Source of the DNA: a virus
DNA length: 42,808 bases
IMG/VR virus record: IMGVR_UViG_3300031973_001126
Location: 1 to 42,808 of that record
Strand: one strand, 5' to 3'
Shown: in pieces, positions 33,727 through 39,823 of the stretch
Layout of the letters: every line of letters starts with the position of its first letter
How positions within the stretch are numbered: the first letter of the stretch is position 1
Translations under genes and position numbers: made by a program
The notes under the pieces: model-generated
Databases searched by the model: none
What the model was told of the DNA's origin: nothing
What the model saw: the letters and a program-made list of their open reading frames with translations, nothing else

Positions 33727-34770
33727 CTACCCCTTTCGACGGGTTTCTCGCGCCACTGGACTGATTTTCAATGCGTCCCCGAGATCGCCCGCAAGCTCAC
33801 GTAGCGCGCCCGGATTCACGCGCCGATAGATGCGGCGGACGGTCTTGGGGTCCGTGTCTGTCAGGTCGCTGATCTGGTCCACCGATCGATCGTTCTCGGC
33901 AAGCCAGGAGATCGCGCTGTGCTTCATGGCGTGCGGGCTGAACGCCGGCTTGAAGTCCTTGCCCTCGCCCTCCCCCAGCCCGGCACGCTTCATCGCCCAC
34001 CACCACGCTTTTCGGAAGTCGGTGACGGGCTCGCCGGCGGGCGTCTCGATGACGTGCGCGGACTTGGCCCATTCCCGTTGCGCCGCCAGGGCGGCCTTGA
34101 CCTGCGGCGCCATCGGGGAGAAGCCGCGGCGCTTGTTCGACTCGCCCTTGGCCGGGTTCCTGAAATCGATCACCCCGCGGCGCATGTCCACGCGGTCCCA
34201 TGTCAGGTCCAGGATCGCCCCGACGCGCCGGCCGGTGGTGAGCGCGATGATGATCAGCAGGCGGAGATAGCCCTTGCTGGCGGCGATGAGTCTCTGCCCG
34301 TCCTCGCGGTCGAACGCGCGCACCGCCGCCGGCCGCTTGCCGGGCATCTGCACCTTGATGCCGGTGGCGCCGCGGAGAAGGCTGAGTTCGTGCCGGCAGG
34401 CGGTGATGCGCTCGCCGCGGGCCTTGATGTAGTCGGCCACAAGCTGCGGCGTGACGTGCTCTGGACGGGTCGCCCCAAGCGCGGCGAGGCGTGCTTTCAG
34501 CCGGCGGGCGTCAGCGGCAAGGTGTCCGTGGCTGGCCTTGTGGGCGCGGCTGGCGACGCGGGTGTCAATGAGCCCTGCGAGCGTGCCGGCAGGCTCACGA
34601 TTTTCCCGCCCGAATTCGCGCGCGAACCGCTCCGCATCCGCCCTTTCATCCGCGCCCGTGCTAGCAGTTTGGCTTCTGCCGTCCGGTCCGGTCCAGCGGA
34701 TGTACCAGGCGTTTCGGCCTGGCCGTTGGAAGAGCCGATAGACCGGCGTTTCGAGGCGGGGCCGCGGCAT
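33727..34770 (-). CDS. int: tyrosine site-specific integrase
   Basis: A 347-residue phage integrase. It has an N-terminal arm-binding region (YRLFQRPGRNAWYIRW), a SAM-like core-binding domain (about 60-145) and the catalytic domain (150-330) with TTGRRVGAI (Arg182), SPHAMKHSAI (His280) and RRIYRRV (nucleophile Tyr315). The usual HxxR reads HxxK (Lys283), and the Gly-His before the nucleophile (LGHSD in relatives) reads LTDTD. It recombines attP with a host tRNA gene. It is last in the leftward operon, next to attP, with the excisionase-like gene overlapping its start. Confidence 0.9.
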   Translation of the reverse strand: MPRPRLETPVYRLFQRPGRNAWYIRWTGPDGRSQTASTGADERADAERFAREFGRENREPAGTLAGLIDTRVASRAHKASHGHLAADARRLKARLAALGATRPEHVTPQLVADYIKARGERITACRHELSLLRGATGIKVQMPGKRPAAVRAFDREDGQRLIAASKGYLRLLIIIALTTGRRVGAILDLTWDRVDMRRGVIDFRNPAKGESNKRRGFSPMAPQVKAALAAQREWAKSAHVIETPAGEPVTDFRKAWWWAMKRAGLGEGEGKDFKPAFSPHAMKHSAISWLAENDRSVDQISDLTDTDPKTVRRIYRRVNPGALRELAGDLGDALKISPVARETRRKG

Positions 34771-34934
34771 AGGTTGCGATTCTCGTAGGCGTCAATGTCT
34801 TCGGCCCGGATGCGGATCGCGCCGGACGGGTGGCGGATGGCGGGCAGATCTCCGTCATCAAGCATCCGATAGACCTTAGCGCGACACAAGCCCATCTTGG
34901 CGGCGGCCTCGCGGACGGTGAGGCGGGCGGTCAT
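34497..34934 (-). CDS. excisionase-like HTH protein
   Basis: Residues 1-50 form a MerR/HTH_17-type winged helix (LTVREAAAKMGLCRAKVYRM, then GDLPAIRHPSGAIRIRAEDI), the type of phage excisionases and recombination directionality factors. The remaining 95 residues run 274 bases into the integrase gene in another frame, are low in complexity, and are probably a read-through tail. Position between early genes and integrase supports control of excision. The start overlaps the previous stop. Confidence 0.65.
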   Translation of the reverse strand: MTARLTVREAAAKMGLCRAKVYRMLDDGDLPAIRHPSGAIRIRAEDIDAYENRNLCRGPASKRRSIGSSNGQAETPGTSAGPDRTAEAKLLARARMKGRMRSGSRANSGGKIVSLPARSQGSLTPASPAAPTRPATDTLPLTPAG

Positions 34935-35314
34935 TCGATCCCCCTGGCCCGGGCGATGGCGATGCAGAGGGCGAGTGCGGGGGTTGGGGCGAAACCGCGA
35001 TGTATTGGGTCTGTGACCCGCTCTTTGTGCAGAATGCCGCAATACTGAGACGGGTCCTGGCGCATTTGCCACCGCCACCCCTCCGGCATCCACGACAGGG
35101 CGGCGTCGATCGAGGCGGTGTAGCGCGGCACCAGGGCCAACGGGCCGCCCGACCCAGGGAGATCGACAATCAGCCCGTCAGCGTCGATCCTCGCGAGCAC
35201 GTAACCGCGCGGTCCATCGTGCGTGCGAACAAACCGCTTGGCCGCAATCCCGATCTCCGCATCCAACTCCCGATCCGGCCCCGTGGCAGCTTCCAGGCGC
35301 GCGAGGAGGGTCAT
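34931..35314 (-). CDS. conserved hypothetical phage protein
   Basis: A 127-residue protein beginning MTLLARLEAATGPDRELDAE, a signature I recognise from many alphaproteobacterial phage and prophage proteins of unknown role. Aromatic motifs follow (PRYTASIDAALSWMPEGWRW), and a C-terminal helix (PALALCIAIARARGIE). Coupled by ATGA to the excisionase gene. The ATG with GAGG just upstream is preferred to an in-frame start seven codons earlier. Confidence 0.7.
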   Translation of the reverse strand: MTLLARLEAATGPDRELDAEIGIAAKRFVRTHDGPRGYVLARIDADGLIVDLPGSGGPLALVPRYTASIDAALSWMPEGWRWQMRQDPSQYCGILHKERVTDPIHRGFAPTPALALCIAIARARGIE

Positions 35315-35892
35315 GGCTGCACCGCCAGAACGCATGTTGGCTTATGCACGATGCTGGCCGGATCGTTCGTGGGGCCGTCGCCATCACAGACGCCGCACCA
35401 GCATCCGGGCCGCCCGTAGTTGGGCATCGTCGATTCCTTGATGAGCGCCTCCCGCAGCCGCTTGTTCTCGGCTTCGGCGGCGGCCAGTTTTCGTTCCGCG
35501 CCCTGCCGCCGGCACCGCTGGCAATCGCCTTTCTGAACCTTGTCGCGGCAATCCGGACACGGACACCAACGGTCAGCGGCTCGACTCTTGGCCTCCGCGA
35601 CAAGCTCCGCCTGCTCCACCCTCTCAATGAGGGCCAGGACGGTGGCGGGGTTTGCGGCGGCGATGAAGGCCATGTCATTGGAAGACACGCCGGGGCCATC
35701 CTGCGCCATTGGTATGACTGTCTTTGTGTGGGCCGGCGCCGATCGCGTGGACACGAAATCAACCCGCCATGCCGGCACGGGGCCGTGGACCGTCCGCGTC
35801 TTCGGAAGGGTCATAAACGGCTGACAGTGGTACCACGGCCCCGGCGTTGCTTTCTCCGCCAGCCGCTTGAGCGCGGGGATGTCGATCTTCAT
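35311..35892 (-). CDS. Ea22-like protein with zinc motif
   Basis: A 193-residue protein. The start (KRLAEKATPGPWYHCQPF) and NDMAFIAAANPATVLALIER at about 80-100 are typical of the lambdoid Ea22/ead family. An inserted Cys cluster (CPCPDC and CQRC, about 115-135), a short coiled coil (AAAEAENKRLREAL) and a second Cys group (CWCGVC) follow. Family members are accessory early proteins without known activity. Confidence 0.65.
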   Translation of the reverse strand: MKIDIPALKRLAEKATPGPWYHCQPFMTLPKTRTVHGPVPAWRVDFVSTRSAPAHTKTVIPMAQDGPGVSSNDMAFIAAANPATVLALIERVEQAELVAEAKSRAADRWCPCPDCRDKVQKGDCQRCRRQGAERKLAAAEAENKRLREALIKESTMPNYGRPGCWCGVCDGDGPTNDPASIVHKPTCVLAVQP

Positions 35893-36176
35893 GGCAGCTT
35901 TTCCTTCCGGTATTGGGCGAGCATGTCTTGCCATGCCATTCCGAAGTGGTGGTCCAGCATGTCGCGCATGTCTTGCGGCGCCCTATCCCAGGCCACGGCG
36001 CACATTGCGTGGCTGGGCCGCTCCATATCCGCGAGCACGGCGGCGATGATCTTTCGCGCATTGGCCCGATGGCCTTCGCGGTTTTCTCGGCAGAGGTCAC
36101 AATCGTCTGTGTGACCGTTATCGAAATCATGCGGCCTCAACATCCGCGCCACAGTCTCCACCAGGGATGCGGTCAT
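35889..36176 (-). CDS. small hypothetical protein, His/Cys-containing
   Basis: A 95-residue helical protein (MTASLVETVARMLRPHDFDN) with CDLC near residue 26 and several His. It overlaps both neighbours by four bases. Phage early proteins of the form 'LVETVARALR...' are common; function unknown. Confidence 0.6.
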   Translation of the reverse strand: MTASLVETVARMLRPHDFDNGHTDDCDLCRENREGHRANARKIIAAVLADMERPSHAMCAVAWDRAPQDMRDMLDHHFGMAWQDMLAQYRKEKLP

Positions 36177-36355
36177 CGCCCCAGCCCCTTGGCCGCCAGC
36201 GTGGCGATGGCGAACAGTGCGGCGGCGGCGACTGAGTCCGTGGAGGATGTTGTCCGCGCCCTGTTCTCGATCACGGCCAGCGCGTCGATAGCGGCCTGCC
36301 CGCGCGCGATCTCGGCGGCGAGCTGCTCCTTGAGGGCGGCTTTGGTGGTTTTCAT
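36173..36355 (-). CDS. small helical hypothetical protein
   Basis: A 60-residue, Ala-rich protein of two helices (MKTTKAALKEQLAAEIARGQ, then a C-terminal hydrophobic helix AAAALFAIATLAAKG). I chose the ATG after which the helix begins rather than an earlier in-frame one. No function recognised. The 61 bases before it contain a GC-rich inverted repeat (GGGGCCGG/CCGGCCCC). Confidence 0.5.
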   Translation of the reverse strand: MKTTKAALKEQLAAEIARGQAAIDALAVIENRARTTSSTDSVAAAALFAIATLAAKGLGR

Positions 36356-36416
36356 GGTTGTGGTCCTTGGTGGGGCCGGCCCTGCATTCAACCGGACCGG
36401 CCCCGCCCCGCGCTTG

Positions 36417-36671
36417 TTACTTCGTGATGTGCTTCACGGCCCACATGACCGCTTCCTCGATCTTGGTCGAGGCGACGGACAACTCGCGGGACGCCGCGGT
36501 CGGGGAGTCGGGGGACTGTCCGGCGACCGTGCGCAACAAGCGCCAGAACTCCAGGCCCTTGTCCTTGACGGCCTGCATCGCAGCCTTCTCGTCCTCGCTG
36601 AGAACGCGGTAGCCGTGGCGCATCACGTTGTTGATGGTGCGTTCGTCTGACGTACTGGCGATTTGTGCCAT
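36417..36671 (-). CDS. Acb2/Tad1-hairpin-type anti-CBASS sponge candidate
   Basis: An 84-residue all-helical protein. The pattern GYRVLSEDEKAAMQAVKDKG (20-39) then SRELSVASTKIEEAVMWAVK and HIT (61-83) matches the Acb2/Tad1 helical-hairpin family (former DUF7681), whose characterised members sequester cyclic di- and trinucleotides made by bacterial CBASS and so block abortive infection. AGGAG precedes the ATG. It lies in the pL operon, so it would be made early, when such a sponge is needed. Nucleotide specificity cannot be read from the sequence. Confidence 0.7.
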   Translation of the reverse strand: MAQIASTSDERTINNVMRHGYRVLSEDEKAAMQAVKDKGLEFWRLLRTVAGQSPDSPTAASRELSVASTKIEEAVMWAVKHITK

Positions 36672-36687
36672 AGGTTTCTCCTGTGAT

Positions 36688-36960
36688 TTACGCGCGGCCC
36701 TTGAGTTCCGGCTGGCCTTCGAACCGGGCAATCATCTCCTTGAACAGCACGACGATTTCTCGCCGGTCCGCGCCGTTGGAAATGAAGTTGCATCGCTGCC
36801 CCTCGGCATCGCCGAACGGGAAGACGAGAAGGACGAAGCCCGTCTTCCGTTCGGCGCCGCGGGCGGTGCCGTTGAAGACATCGTCCAAGCCGCGGGCTAC
36901 GGCGTTCATCCGCGCCGCGTACTCGGGCTGAATCGGTCGGTCGCCAAGTTTGTCGCTCAT
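36688..36960 (-). CDS. conserved hypothetical phage protein
   Basis: A 90-residue protein with the motif KTGFVLLVFPFGDAEGQRCN followed by FISNGADRREIVVLFKEMI, a combination I have seen in many phage early operons next to recombination genes. Mixed alpha/beta. It lies 16 bases upstream of the Acb2-like gene in the transcript, which makes an accessory or counter-defence role worth testing. No known activity. Confidence 0.65.
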   Translation of the reverse strand: MSDKLGDRPIQPEYAARMNAVARGLDDVFNGTARGAERKTGFVLLVFPFGDAEGQRCNFISNGADRREIVVLFKEMIARFEGQPELKGRA

Positions 36961-37008: not shown

Positions 37009-37332
37009 TTAGGCGAAGGATCGGGCGATCCGCTGCATCACGAACGCCCTCCCCTGTCGCGATTGGTTCATCAATGCCAGCCAATCTTTCCAGAACTTCG
37101 CCTCGCCGATCCGGTGTTGCATGTCATGGTGGCGATGGCACAGCGGGATCGCCGCATCGTCGCCCGGCTTTTGTCCGATGCCGCCATCCCCGCCGAACCG
37201 GATATGAGCAGGCTCGCTCGGCAGCGAGTTGCACAGCAGGCACGGTATGTCCCGCAGGCTATCCAGGTGCTTCCGGTCTCGTAGCGGAGGCTGGCGCTGG
37301 CGGACGGGGATGGTGGTGGGGACGGCGGTCAT
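37009..37332 (-). CDS. HNH-like / DUF968-type recombination protein
   Basis: A 107-residue basic protein. IPCLLC (zinc), PAHIRFGGDGGIGQKPGDD, then PLCHRHHDMQHRIGEAKFW is the His/Cys pattern of small phage HNH-like proteins related to DUF968 and NinG-type recombination factors. The His-rich HRHHDMQH is the likely metal centre. It is coupled to the DUF1367 gene and lies beside SSB, Erf-like and YqaJ-like genes, supporting a role in recombination. Confidence 0.65.
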   Translation of the reverse strand: MTAVPTTIPVRQRQPPLRDRKHLDSLRDIPCLLCNSLPSEPAHIRFGGDGGIGQKPGDDAAIPLCHRHHDMQHRIGEAKFWKDWLALMNQSRQGRAFVMQRIARSFA

Positions 37333-37751
37333 TGCGCGAACTCCATCAATTCCCGTTCCAAATCCGCCCTGTCGAGGCCTGGCACCACTTCGGCCAGCAC
37401 GAAATCCACCGCGCGATTGTAGAAGGCGTCGAATTCGTCCTGGTCCATGGCGGCGAACGATATGGACAGCGGGACCTCGATTTCCCCGCGCTTGGTTCGC
37501 ACCTTCTCCGTGTAGCCGAGCGCGAATTTCATCGCGGCCAGGATGTGATCGACCGAGCGGTAATGCTTCTGGTTTTGGTAGATCAGGTTGAGCATGGCGA
37601 AGAACTTCCGGTGGTGCATGACGTTCCGGGGCTTCCCGGTGAATTCGACCTTGACCAGCGCCCCCAGCTTGACTTTGCGCAGCGCTTCCTCGCCCGCTTC
37701 GTCGGTCGGGCGGAGGCAGCCAAGGTCTTTGCGGAGGATGAGGGTGGTCAT
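37329..37751 (-). CDS. DUF1367-family protein
   Basis: A 140-residue protein with LGCLRPTDEAGEEALRKVKL, then RNVMHHRKFFAMLNLIYQNQ and AAMDQDEFDAFYNRAVDFV, the features of phage DUF1367 proteins that accompany recombination genes. It is coupled to the HNH-like gene downstream and touches the SSB gene upstream by one base. The molecular role is unknown. Confidence 0.7.
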   Translation of the reverse strand: MTTLILRKDLGCLRPTDEAGEEALRKVKLGALVKVEFTGKPRNVMHHRKFFAMLNLIYQNQKHYRSVDHILAAMKFALGYTEKVRTKRGEIEVPLSISFAAMDQDEFDAFYNRAVDFVLAEVVPGLDRADLERELMEFAQ

Positions 37752-38197
37752 CAGAAGGGCACTTCGTCGTCGAAGGCGTCGCGCTGCTTCGGCGGGGCCT
37801 TATCCGGCGCCTGGAAATCCCGCGCGGCCTGCTTCGTGTCGGTCTTCGGCCCATCCAATATCTGCAATTCGCCGCGGAACTTGGTCAGCACGATCTCGGT
37901 CGAGAGCTTCTCCGCCCCGTCCTTGTCGGTCCATTTCCGGGTTTGAAGCTGCCCCTCGACATAGACCTTGCTGCCCTTGCGCAGGTATTGAGCGGCAACG
38001 TCAGCGATGCGGTCATTGAAAATCACGACGCGGTGCCACTCGGTCTTTTCCTTGCGCTCACCCGATGATTTGTCCTTCCAGCTTTCGGACGTGGCGATAT
38101 TGAGGTTGGCGATCTTCTCCCCGGCCTGCGTGTTGCGGACTTCCGGGTCACGGCCGAGGTTGCCGATGAGAATGACTTTGTTGACGCTGCCGGCCAT
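37751..38197 (-). CDS. ssb: single-stranded DNA-binding protein
   Basis: A 148-residue SSB. The OB fold (about 5-110) shows [38 protein letters not shown] and [19 protein letters not shown] short linker leads to the acidic tip DDEVPF, the hook for partner proteins. It coats single strands in phage replication and Erf/YqaJ recombination; the adjacent gene encodes the annealing protein. ATG overlaps that gene's stop; a GTG one codon upstream is an alternative. Confidence 0.92.
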
Positions 38198-38829
38198 CAC
38201 GCGGCCTCATTCATTTGTTGCAGGCAGCTTCCGTACATGCTCCGCACGCGGCTGCGGAGTTCGTCCGACATGGCGTCGATATGAGCCTTGTTGTCGGCGA
38301 CGATCTGATCCATTGCGGCCTTGGTCTTCGCCGCGCGGAAGCCGGATTCAATCTCCTGCGCTTTCTTCTCCGAAGGCGTCGGCGCGAGGTTCGTGACCTT
38401 GGCCGATGGCTTGCGCTCGGTCTGCTCGGTGATCGTATTGCCGTCCGCCGCGTTGGCGTCGTCGTCGTCATCGGCCGAAATGCCGAGCACCGATTGCAGC
38501 GTGTACCGCTTCTTGTACGTGAGTTCGCTGCCCTGCTCTTGCATCTTGCCGGCCAGGCTCAGGGGCATCCGGCTTTCGACCGTCTCGCCGCTGCTGTGGG
38601 CCAGGACCGCCACCAGTTCCGGCTTGCCGTTCGGCAGTTCGATCCGGTGAAACACAGCCAGTTCGTTCGCGGCGAGCGCCGGCCGCACCGCCTCCAGGAT
38701 GCTTTCGAGCGGCGCATATTTGAATTTATACGAGCCCTTGTCCGACCGGACTGTGACCTCTTTCGAGCGGGGAACCGCCGGAAACTTCGCCTGCGCCTTC
38801 GCCAGCGCGCCGTAGATTGCGCCCGTCAT
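38197..38829 (-). CDS. erf: Erf-family single-strand annealing protein
   Basis: A 210-residue recombinase. The Erf signature is clear: [59 protein letters not shown] and [20 protein letters not shown] followed by an Asp-run. The C-terminal 80 residues are charged and helical. It anneals complementary strands, with a YqaJ-type exonuclease (next gene) making the ends and SSB covering them. All three are coupled by overlaps. P22 Erf has this role in genome circularisation. Confidence 0.88.
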
Positions 38830-39602
38830 GCCGCCAACTCCTTGATGGTGATGCTGCCGTTCTTGGCCTTCTTGGCCTCGACGCCGTGGCCGTAGACGCG
38901 CTTGGCGTCCGCCGGCACCGCGCCCTTGATGGCCTTCGTCGCTTGCTCGAAAATCTTGGCCGCCGGGCGATTGTCCTTCCAATCGGCGGCCCAATTGGCC
39001 CACTCGTTGTTGCCGGTCATATCGACCTCGCGCATTTGGTCGATGGCGATGGCCGCTTCTGCCGCCGGTTGGTCCGGGGGCGCGGTATCTGTTTCGACAT
39101 AGCGCCAGAATTGAGCCGCGCGGGATTCGAGTTCGGCGATGTAGTCCGCGTCCGGCTCAATCCGGTAGCTGTTCCACGAGGGCGAGCCCGTGATGACGGA
39201 AAGATGCACGGCCGGCGCGCCGATGATCGCAAGTTGCGCCTGACATTGCGGGTAATACCGTGCTAGTATCTCTTCCTCTTTGTTGAAGGCGCCGCAGAAC
39301 TTCGCCTCCACCAATTCGCGATTGAGAAGCGAAGCGTCCGGGTGGCAGCGGAGGAACGGCAGCCGCTTGTGCGTCCATTCGTCGGGGGCCTGCGGGTCCT
39401 GGGCATTACCGGTCCGCTCGCAAAACCAGCGGACGTTCAGCGCCTCGGTCGCGATGCCAAGCTGGACCGCGATGTTGCTCGACAGGTCCGGAAATTCTTC
39501 GCGCCCGGTCTTTTGCTGCCAGAGATAGTACCAGTCGCCGCGCATGACGTAGCCCATGTCGGACGCGCCAAGATATTTCGTTCGGTCGCCGAGAATGGCC
39601 AT
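38826..39602 (-). CDS. YqaJ-like viral exonuclease
   Basis: A 258-residue PD-(D/E)XK exonuclease of the YqaJ/lambda-Exo type. Motifs: YLGASDMGYVMRGDWYYLW at the start, a helix with GIATEALNVRWF (Glu), RCHPDASLLNRELVEAKFCG (Asp and E-x-K) and PQCQAQLAIIGA (Gln). The C-terminal helix-rich tail is basic. It resects double-stranded ends for the adjacent Erf-like protein. It is coupled to genes on both sides. Confidence 0.85.
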   Translation of the reverse strand: MAILGDRTKYLGASDMGYVMRGDWYYLWQQKTGREEFPDLSSNIAVQLGIATEALNVRWFCERTGNAQDPQAPDEWTHKRLPFLRCHPDASLLNRELVEAKFCGAFNKEEEILARYYPQCQAQLAIIGAPAVHLSVITGSPSWNSYRIEPDADYIAELESRAAQFWRYVETDTAPPDQPAAEAAIAIDQMREVDMTGNNEWANWAADWKDNRPAAKIFEQATKAIKGAVPADAKRVYGHGVEAKKAKNGSITIKELAA

Positions 39603-39823
39603 CACGCGGCTCCATCGTTCTGAGTGTCACAGGGCGCCATGCATCGCCTGGGGAATTGCAGGACAATGGCCGGCTCCGGCCTCAACTCCCGGGCCAGCGC
39701 CCGCAACCATTGAGACAGGTCCGCCATTTCTTCGAGCGTGAGCGTACTGCCGGCGGCAAGCAGAAGGTCTACCCGCTCGCGCAGGGCATCGACCTCGTCA
39801 CGCAACGGACGGGCAAGCAGCAT
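39602..39823 (-). CDS. small coiled hypothetical protein
   Basis: A 73-residue protein with two helices (LRDEVDALRERVDLLLAAGS, then LTLEEMADLSQWLRALAREL) and a basic, Cys-containing end. Starts at an ATG overlapping the previous stop. Function unknown; it shares the recombination transcript. Confidence 0.55.
   Translation of the reverse strand: MLLARPLRDEVDALRERVDLLLAAGSTLTLEEMADLSQWLRALARELRPEPAIVLQFPRRCMAPCDTQNDGAA

Follow-up and report, generated by a model that had tools for sequence, protein, structure and literature searches.

Proteins of the Acb2 family soak up the alarm molecules that trigger the suicide of infected bacteria. Residues of the T4 member, Vs.4, have been linked to cGAMP or to the hexamer by structure, mutants or natural variants (PMC10097602, with T68 taken from PMC12657230). 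Tad1, which carries the same hairpin, is defined by an N-terminal antiparallel β-sheet ahead of it (PMC12043709). The activator of NucC is cA3, for which Acb2 has a higher affinity than for dinucleotides (PMC12043709).

In the current analysis we have examined the whole of a virus record of 42,808 bases (IMGVR_UViG_3300031973_001126; referred to as the window), which encodes a protein of this family. An original prediction, made from the sequence alone, had placed an Acb2/Tad1-type anti-CBASS sponge at 36417-36671. The coordinates are exact, with an ATG at 36671 and a stop at 36417 on the minus strand, and the three motifs quoted are all present, at residues 21-39, 61-78 and 80-83 of the 84. 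This is an already known kind of gene, common in phages of alphaproteobacteria.

The gene belongs to the Acb2/Tad1 hairpin family. The profile search set beforehand as a check gives a strong match to the Pfam family Acb2_Tad1_hairpin (PF24729; 69.4 bits, E 3.1e-19, curated cut-off 27 bits), and the proven sponges T4 Acb2/Vs.4 and P. aeruginosa phage Acb2 (p26) score 71.4 and 62.4 bits in the same test. The protein also matches phrog_1454 and phrog_717 (E 6e-9), the latter being the PHROG from which Jenson et al. collected Vs.4 homologues (PMC10097602). When a profile of 31 relatives is compared with the PDB, the nine top distinct sequences are Vs.4, p26/Acb2, 'Acb2 homolog 43' and five Tad1, with modest E-values. 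Relatives are encoded in 203 IMG/VR contigs, the median dN/dS over 191 pairs of them is ~0.10, and 9262 of the 14295 differences among 37 relatives of equal length (65%) fall at codon position 3; because of this spread, constraint and third-position bias the ORF is a real gene.

The AlphaFold2 monomer model, built from 31 sequences, has two helices of high pLDDT (residues 26-49 and 62-83) and a stretch of low confidence at residues 1-19. This helical hairpin, the fold that the prediction had called for, finds Vs.4 (7uq2) and Acb2 (8h2x) as its top folds in a Foldseek search of the PDB, well clear of others, with probabilities of 0.97-0.99 and E-values of only ~0.2, which are weak taken alone. 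Among the 12 top matches of a fold search against BFVD, 10, including the top five, are named Acb2/Tad1 hairpin (probability up to 1.00); the matches come from phages of Streptomyces, Microbacterium, Arthrobacter, Bacillus, Mycobacterium, Lactococcus and others. Tad1 proper has been considered and rejected, as the model contains no β-strands in its 84 residues and the N-terminal antiparallel β-sheet domain is absent.

The protein shares with T4 Vs.4 the Pfam domain, the two long helices and the M-W-A motif; it differs in a longer N-terminal extension bearing NNxMRH, in a shorter loop between the helices and in its location, a lambda-like early operon of a temperate podovirus as against the accessory region of T4. 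With the Pseudomonas phage Acb2 (p26; 8h2j, 8ixz) it has in common the hairpin fold, GYR-LS at the start of helix 1, a Tyr and a Lys 15 residues apart and an R that starts helix 2, whereas identity in the structure alignment is ~27% and the C-terminal EEAVMWAVKHIT is not shared. The C-terminal helix motif SRE..A.T..EEA.MW is shared with Tad1 (7uav, 8smd), whose β-sheet domain, missing here, contributes to the gcADPR pocket. Much closer are AUSSIE_37 of Sinorhizobium phage Aussie and DVVG_00015 of 'Dunaliella viridis virus SI2', both labelled hypothetical protein, which are 50-52% identical along their full length, the N-terminal motif included, and match PF24729 at 68 bits; their positions in the genome differ from that in the window. 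AUSSIE_37 (L113:7983-8219) belongs to a late operon, where it is flanked by the head-tail adaptor and stopper genes. The record of virus SI2 (HQ332136 / NC_023841), reported from a green alga, encodes an ERF gene besides an Acb2 hairpin gene of bacterial-phage type; the virus most likely infects an alga-associated bacterium, and the record is probably mislabelled.

The residues known from Vs.4 have been followed through 102 distinct relatives. The segment from G7-Y8 to K23-D24 of Vs.4 aligns without a gap, and Y8 and K23 correspond to Y21 (Tyr in 94%) and K36 (Lys in 98%), and R79 to K80 (Lys in 97%). The alanines of the hexamer, A66, A73 and A77, are matched by A67 (100%), A74 (99%) and A78 (99%), T68 by T69 (Thr in 90%) and the helix cap T12 by S25 (Ser or Thr in 83%). 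Two contacts are replaced, H11 by L24 (Leu in 97%) and F82 by T83 (Thr in 98%), as is S74, next to the ligand, by V75 (Val in 100%). As Y8, K23 and R79 are matched and H11, S74 and F82 are replaced, the dinucleotide pocket appears from the alignment to be kept in part, with the stacking residue uniformly changed; with Leu and Thr in place of H11 and F82, the ligand preference may differ from that of Vs.4. The pocket residues are better conserved than the inter-helix loop in the same relatives. A conserved N-terminal extension, S-T-S-D-E-R-x-x-N-N-x-M-R-H (residues 6-19), lies outside the Pfam domain. Across the subfamily this stretch reads S-T-S-D-x-R-x-x-N-N-x-M-R-H directly before Y21, with N14, N15, R18 and H19 invariant, and, lying beside Y21, it may contribute to closing the pocket or supply other contacts. 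The subfamily offers a ready test of whether the ligand of the Acb2 pocket changes upon loss of Phe82. Profile, predicted fold and most of the key pocket residues agree that the gene very probably encodes an Acb2-type sponge, a function inferred from these likenesses.

The exonuclease (39605), the integrase (33727) and the recognised genes of the window between them are all read in one direction (Table 1). The leftward order of YqaJ exonuclease, ERF, SSB, NinB/Orf, HNH, phrog_35296, sponge, small ORFs, Ead/Ea22, HTH_17 and integrase fits, by analogy, a lambda-like left early operon. This order agrees with the placement in a pL operon suggested earlier, but in the promoter scan sites were no commoner than in shuffled sequence. 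The hairpin behind the sponge gene, as stable as which 3 of 200 shuffles fold, has no clear T-run and is a possible terminator or attenuator. Searches of the small neighbours of the sponge with PADLOC, NCBIfam and Pfam gave nothing useful except Ead/Ea22.

Table 1. Features around the predicted sponge gene of the window
Feature	Coordinates	Strand	Evidence or remark
YqaJ/RecE-type exonuclease	38826..39605	(-)	PF09588 E 5e-9, phrog_434 E 7e-38
ERF recombinase, true start probably further in	38197..39003	(-)	PF04404 E 1e-20
Single-strand DNA-binding protein	37751..38200	(-)	PF00436 E 1.5e-36
NinB/Orf recombination mediator	37329..37751	(-)	phrog_319 E 6e-26
HNH endonuclease	37009..37335	(-)	PF06147, phrog_131
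phrog_35296 neighbour, 90 aa, candidate cassette partner	36688..36960	(-)	phrog_35296 E 4e-35
Shine-Dalgarno AGGAG	36679..36683	(-)	7 nt 5' of sponge ATG; from sequence
Acb2/Tad1-hairpin (PF24729) protein, 84 aa, predicted cyclic-oligonucleotide sponge	36417..36671	(-)	Pfam, PHROG, PDB profile, AF2, Foldseek, conservation, dN/dS
GC-rich hairpin, sponge stop to next gene	36373..36404	(-)	-32.6 kcal/mol, z -2.0
Small ORF, 60 aa from its ATG	36173..36355	(-)	no Pfam/PHROG match
Small ORF, 95 aa	35889..36176	(-)	4-nt overlap with preceding stop; weak PHROG matches only
Ead/Ea22-like protein	35311..35934	(-)	PF13935 E 1.6e-7
HTH_17 protein, Xis-like	34497..34934	(-)	PF12728 E 4e-12
Tyrosine integrase	33727..34770	(-)	PF00589 E 1.5e-10

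A P22-type coat protein, terminase, portal and integrase are encoded in the window, which supports the assignment to a temperate podovirus made in the original prediction. An alphaproteobacterial host is likely. The portal protein found two weak matches only in 190 genomes of the class, and the only similar DNA in public phage records is a 333-bp SSB segment of Caulobacter phage Sansa.

Genomes with close relatives of the sponge are almost all from Alphaproteobacteria. A PF24729 protein above the cut-off occurs in 16 of 297 genomes (~5%) of the order to which the Xanthobacteraceae member belongs, a figure perhaps slightly raised by the five genomes pre-chosen for carrying the gene. The idea that this sponge would widen the host range known for the strategy is not supported, since Sinorhizobium phage Aussie and many alphaproteobacterial genomes already carry such genes; it is further undercut by the Acb2/Tad1 proteins named in phages of Streptomyces, Microbacterium, Bacillus, Lactococcus and Mycobacterium. 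Relatives have been identified in the late head-tail operons of Aussie and of Mu-like loci (L085, L102, L105, L106 and L112), and near replication genes in L038, L076 and their kin, while in the window the gene is part of an early recombination block; the neighbour clusters were classed by eye from the sequences and not by profile. The commonest neighbour family is common to only 11 of the compared loci. Because the gene sits in such unrelated positions, an accessory counter-defence gene fits better than a part of the virion.

A sponge frame without a stop has been found in one locus (L060:6001 onward), where it continues into membrane-protein-like, possibly holin-like sequence. Either the two are fused, or the read-through stems from a frameshift or an error in sequencing.

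CBASS operons comprising two HORMA proteins, a CD-NTase and NucC have been identified in three alphaproteobacterial genomes that carry the sponge (loci L083, L101 and L105; CBASS operons L119, L118 and L124), TRIP13 also being seen in L119 and L124. NucC-type CBASS thus occurs in alphaproteobacteria whose phages or prophages hold this Acb2 subfamily with its own N-terminal motif. A plausible target of the sponge exists in such hosts, which does not imply that it is the actual target. Within the one order sample SMODS cyclases show no significant association with the sponge (3/16 carriers against 25/281 other genomes, p 0.18), and they occur in 0/11 carriers when the pre-chosen genomes are left aside. 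An excess of cyclases among carriers (6/17 against 7/289 in a class sample) has been rejected as functional proof, because the genomes of the two samples are unlike in size and kinship and the order sample is non-significant.

By analogy with the solved Acb2 proteins, the sponge would form a hexamer of hairpins early in infection or induction, with inter-protomer pockets for cyclic dinucleotides and a site at the trimer axis for cyclic trinucleotides. The signal of the CD-NTase would be withdrawn from effectors such as NucC, and cell suicide would be averted until the phage has multiplied. The NucC-type CBASS operons of the three sponge-carrying genomes make cA3 a reasonable guess for the preferred ligand.

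The same fold could also serve mainly another pathway, such as the cA3 of type III CRISPR, the gcADPR of Thoeris or an undescribed signal. The loss of H11 and F82 of Vs.4, the invariant N14, N15, R18 and H19 adjoining Y21, the C-terminal motif common with Tad1 and the non-significant co-occurrence with SMODS cyclases all suit such a sponge, but the β-sheet domain and the loops that aid gcADPR binding in Tad1 are absent here and NucC CBASS is present in several hosts, and we consider this reading unlikely. More improbable still is the reuse of the hairpin hexamer in a non-immune role, in virion assembly or as a lysis-linked accessory, with the sponge activity given up. The gene of Aussie amid head-tail genes, several loci where the gene follows portal or coat genes and the membrane-protein-like continuation in L060 point towards it; against it stand the window and other loci, where the gene lies among recombination or replication genes with no general neighbour, and the better conservation of the pocket than of the inter-helix loop.

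A short helical reading frame in a GC-rich genome might moreover arise by chance or from composition, with no relation to the family. This is refuted by the Pfam E-value of 3e-19, the 203 relatives, the dN/dS of ~0.1 and the fold match, and its probability is negligible. The Acb2-type sponge is the reading we retain.

The gene directly upstream of the sponge, whose stop lies 16 nt before the sponge ATG, encodes a protein of phrog_35296. It has no Pfam match and a fold search gave no match. Viral relatives number 119 by single-sequence search and 216 by profile, and their C-terminal part is almost invariant (EMIARFEGQP). In 10 phage contigs (L134, L136, L142-L146, L157, L164 and L168) a different PF24729 protein (51.7 bits) directly precedes phrog_35296, with a 4-nt ATGA overlap in nine of them and a 22-nt gap in the remaining one. 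Most of these contigs are otherwise unrelated, and the DNA similarity between them is limited to ~500-570 bp at 70-96% identity, which corresponds to both genes as a cassette of roughly 0.55 kb; in some pairs more distant blocks of DNA are shared as well. The pair is carried by 10 of the 45 loci found for this second hairpin subfamily. The order of the two genes is reversed in the window, where the sponge is of another subfamily. The association of phrog_35296 with hairpin genes is recurrent, not obligate.

This recurrent pairing elsewhere lends indirect support to the suggestion that 36688-36960 forms part of a counter-defence island, and is a new lead, which marks phrog_35296 as a possible counter-defence partner and a concrete candidate in the search for new counter-defence genes. 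The Panoptes defence is set off when Acb2 takes its decoy nucleotide (PMC12657218, PMC12657230), and one may speculate that for this reason, among others, a sponge might require a partner. A bolder proposal, which we regard as doubtful, is that the sponge and phrog_35296 make up a two-gene counter-defence module, in which phrog_35296 would be a second, undescribed anti-immune factor acting jointly with Acb2-type sponges, for instance by shielding the phage from sponge-responsive systems such as Panoptes. It would have become associated in separate events with two or more hairpin subfamilies, perhaps three, one form being mobile between phages as a 0.55-kb cassette.

A third Acb2-like hairpin type (VRMSFNPSANQDVENIK...AAMWAVKG) has been observed ~0.5 kb downstream of phrog_35296 in one locus only (L326:2976-3786).
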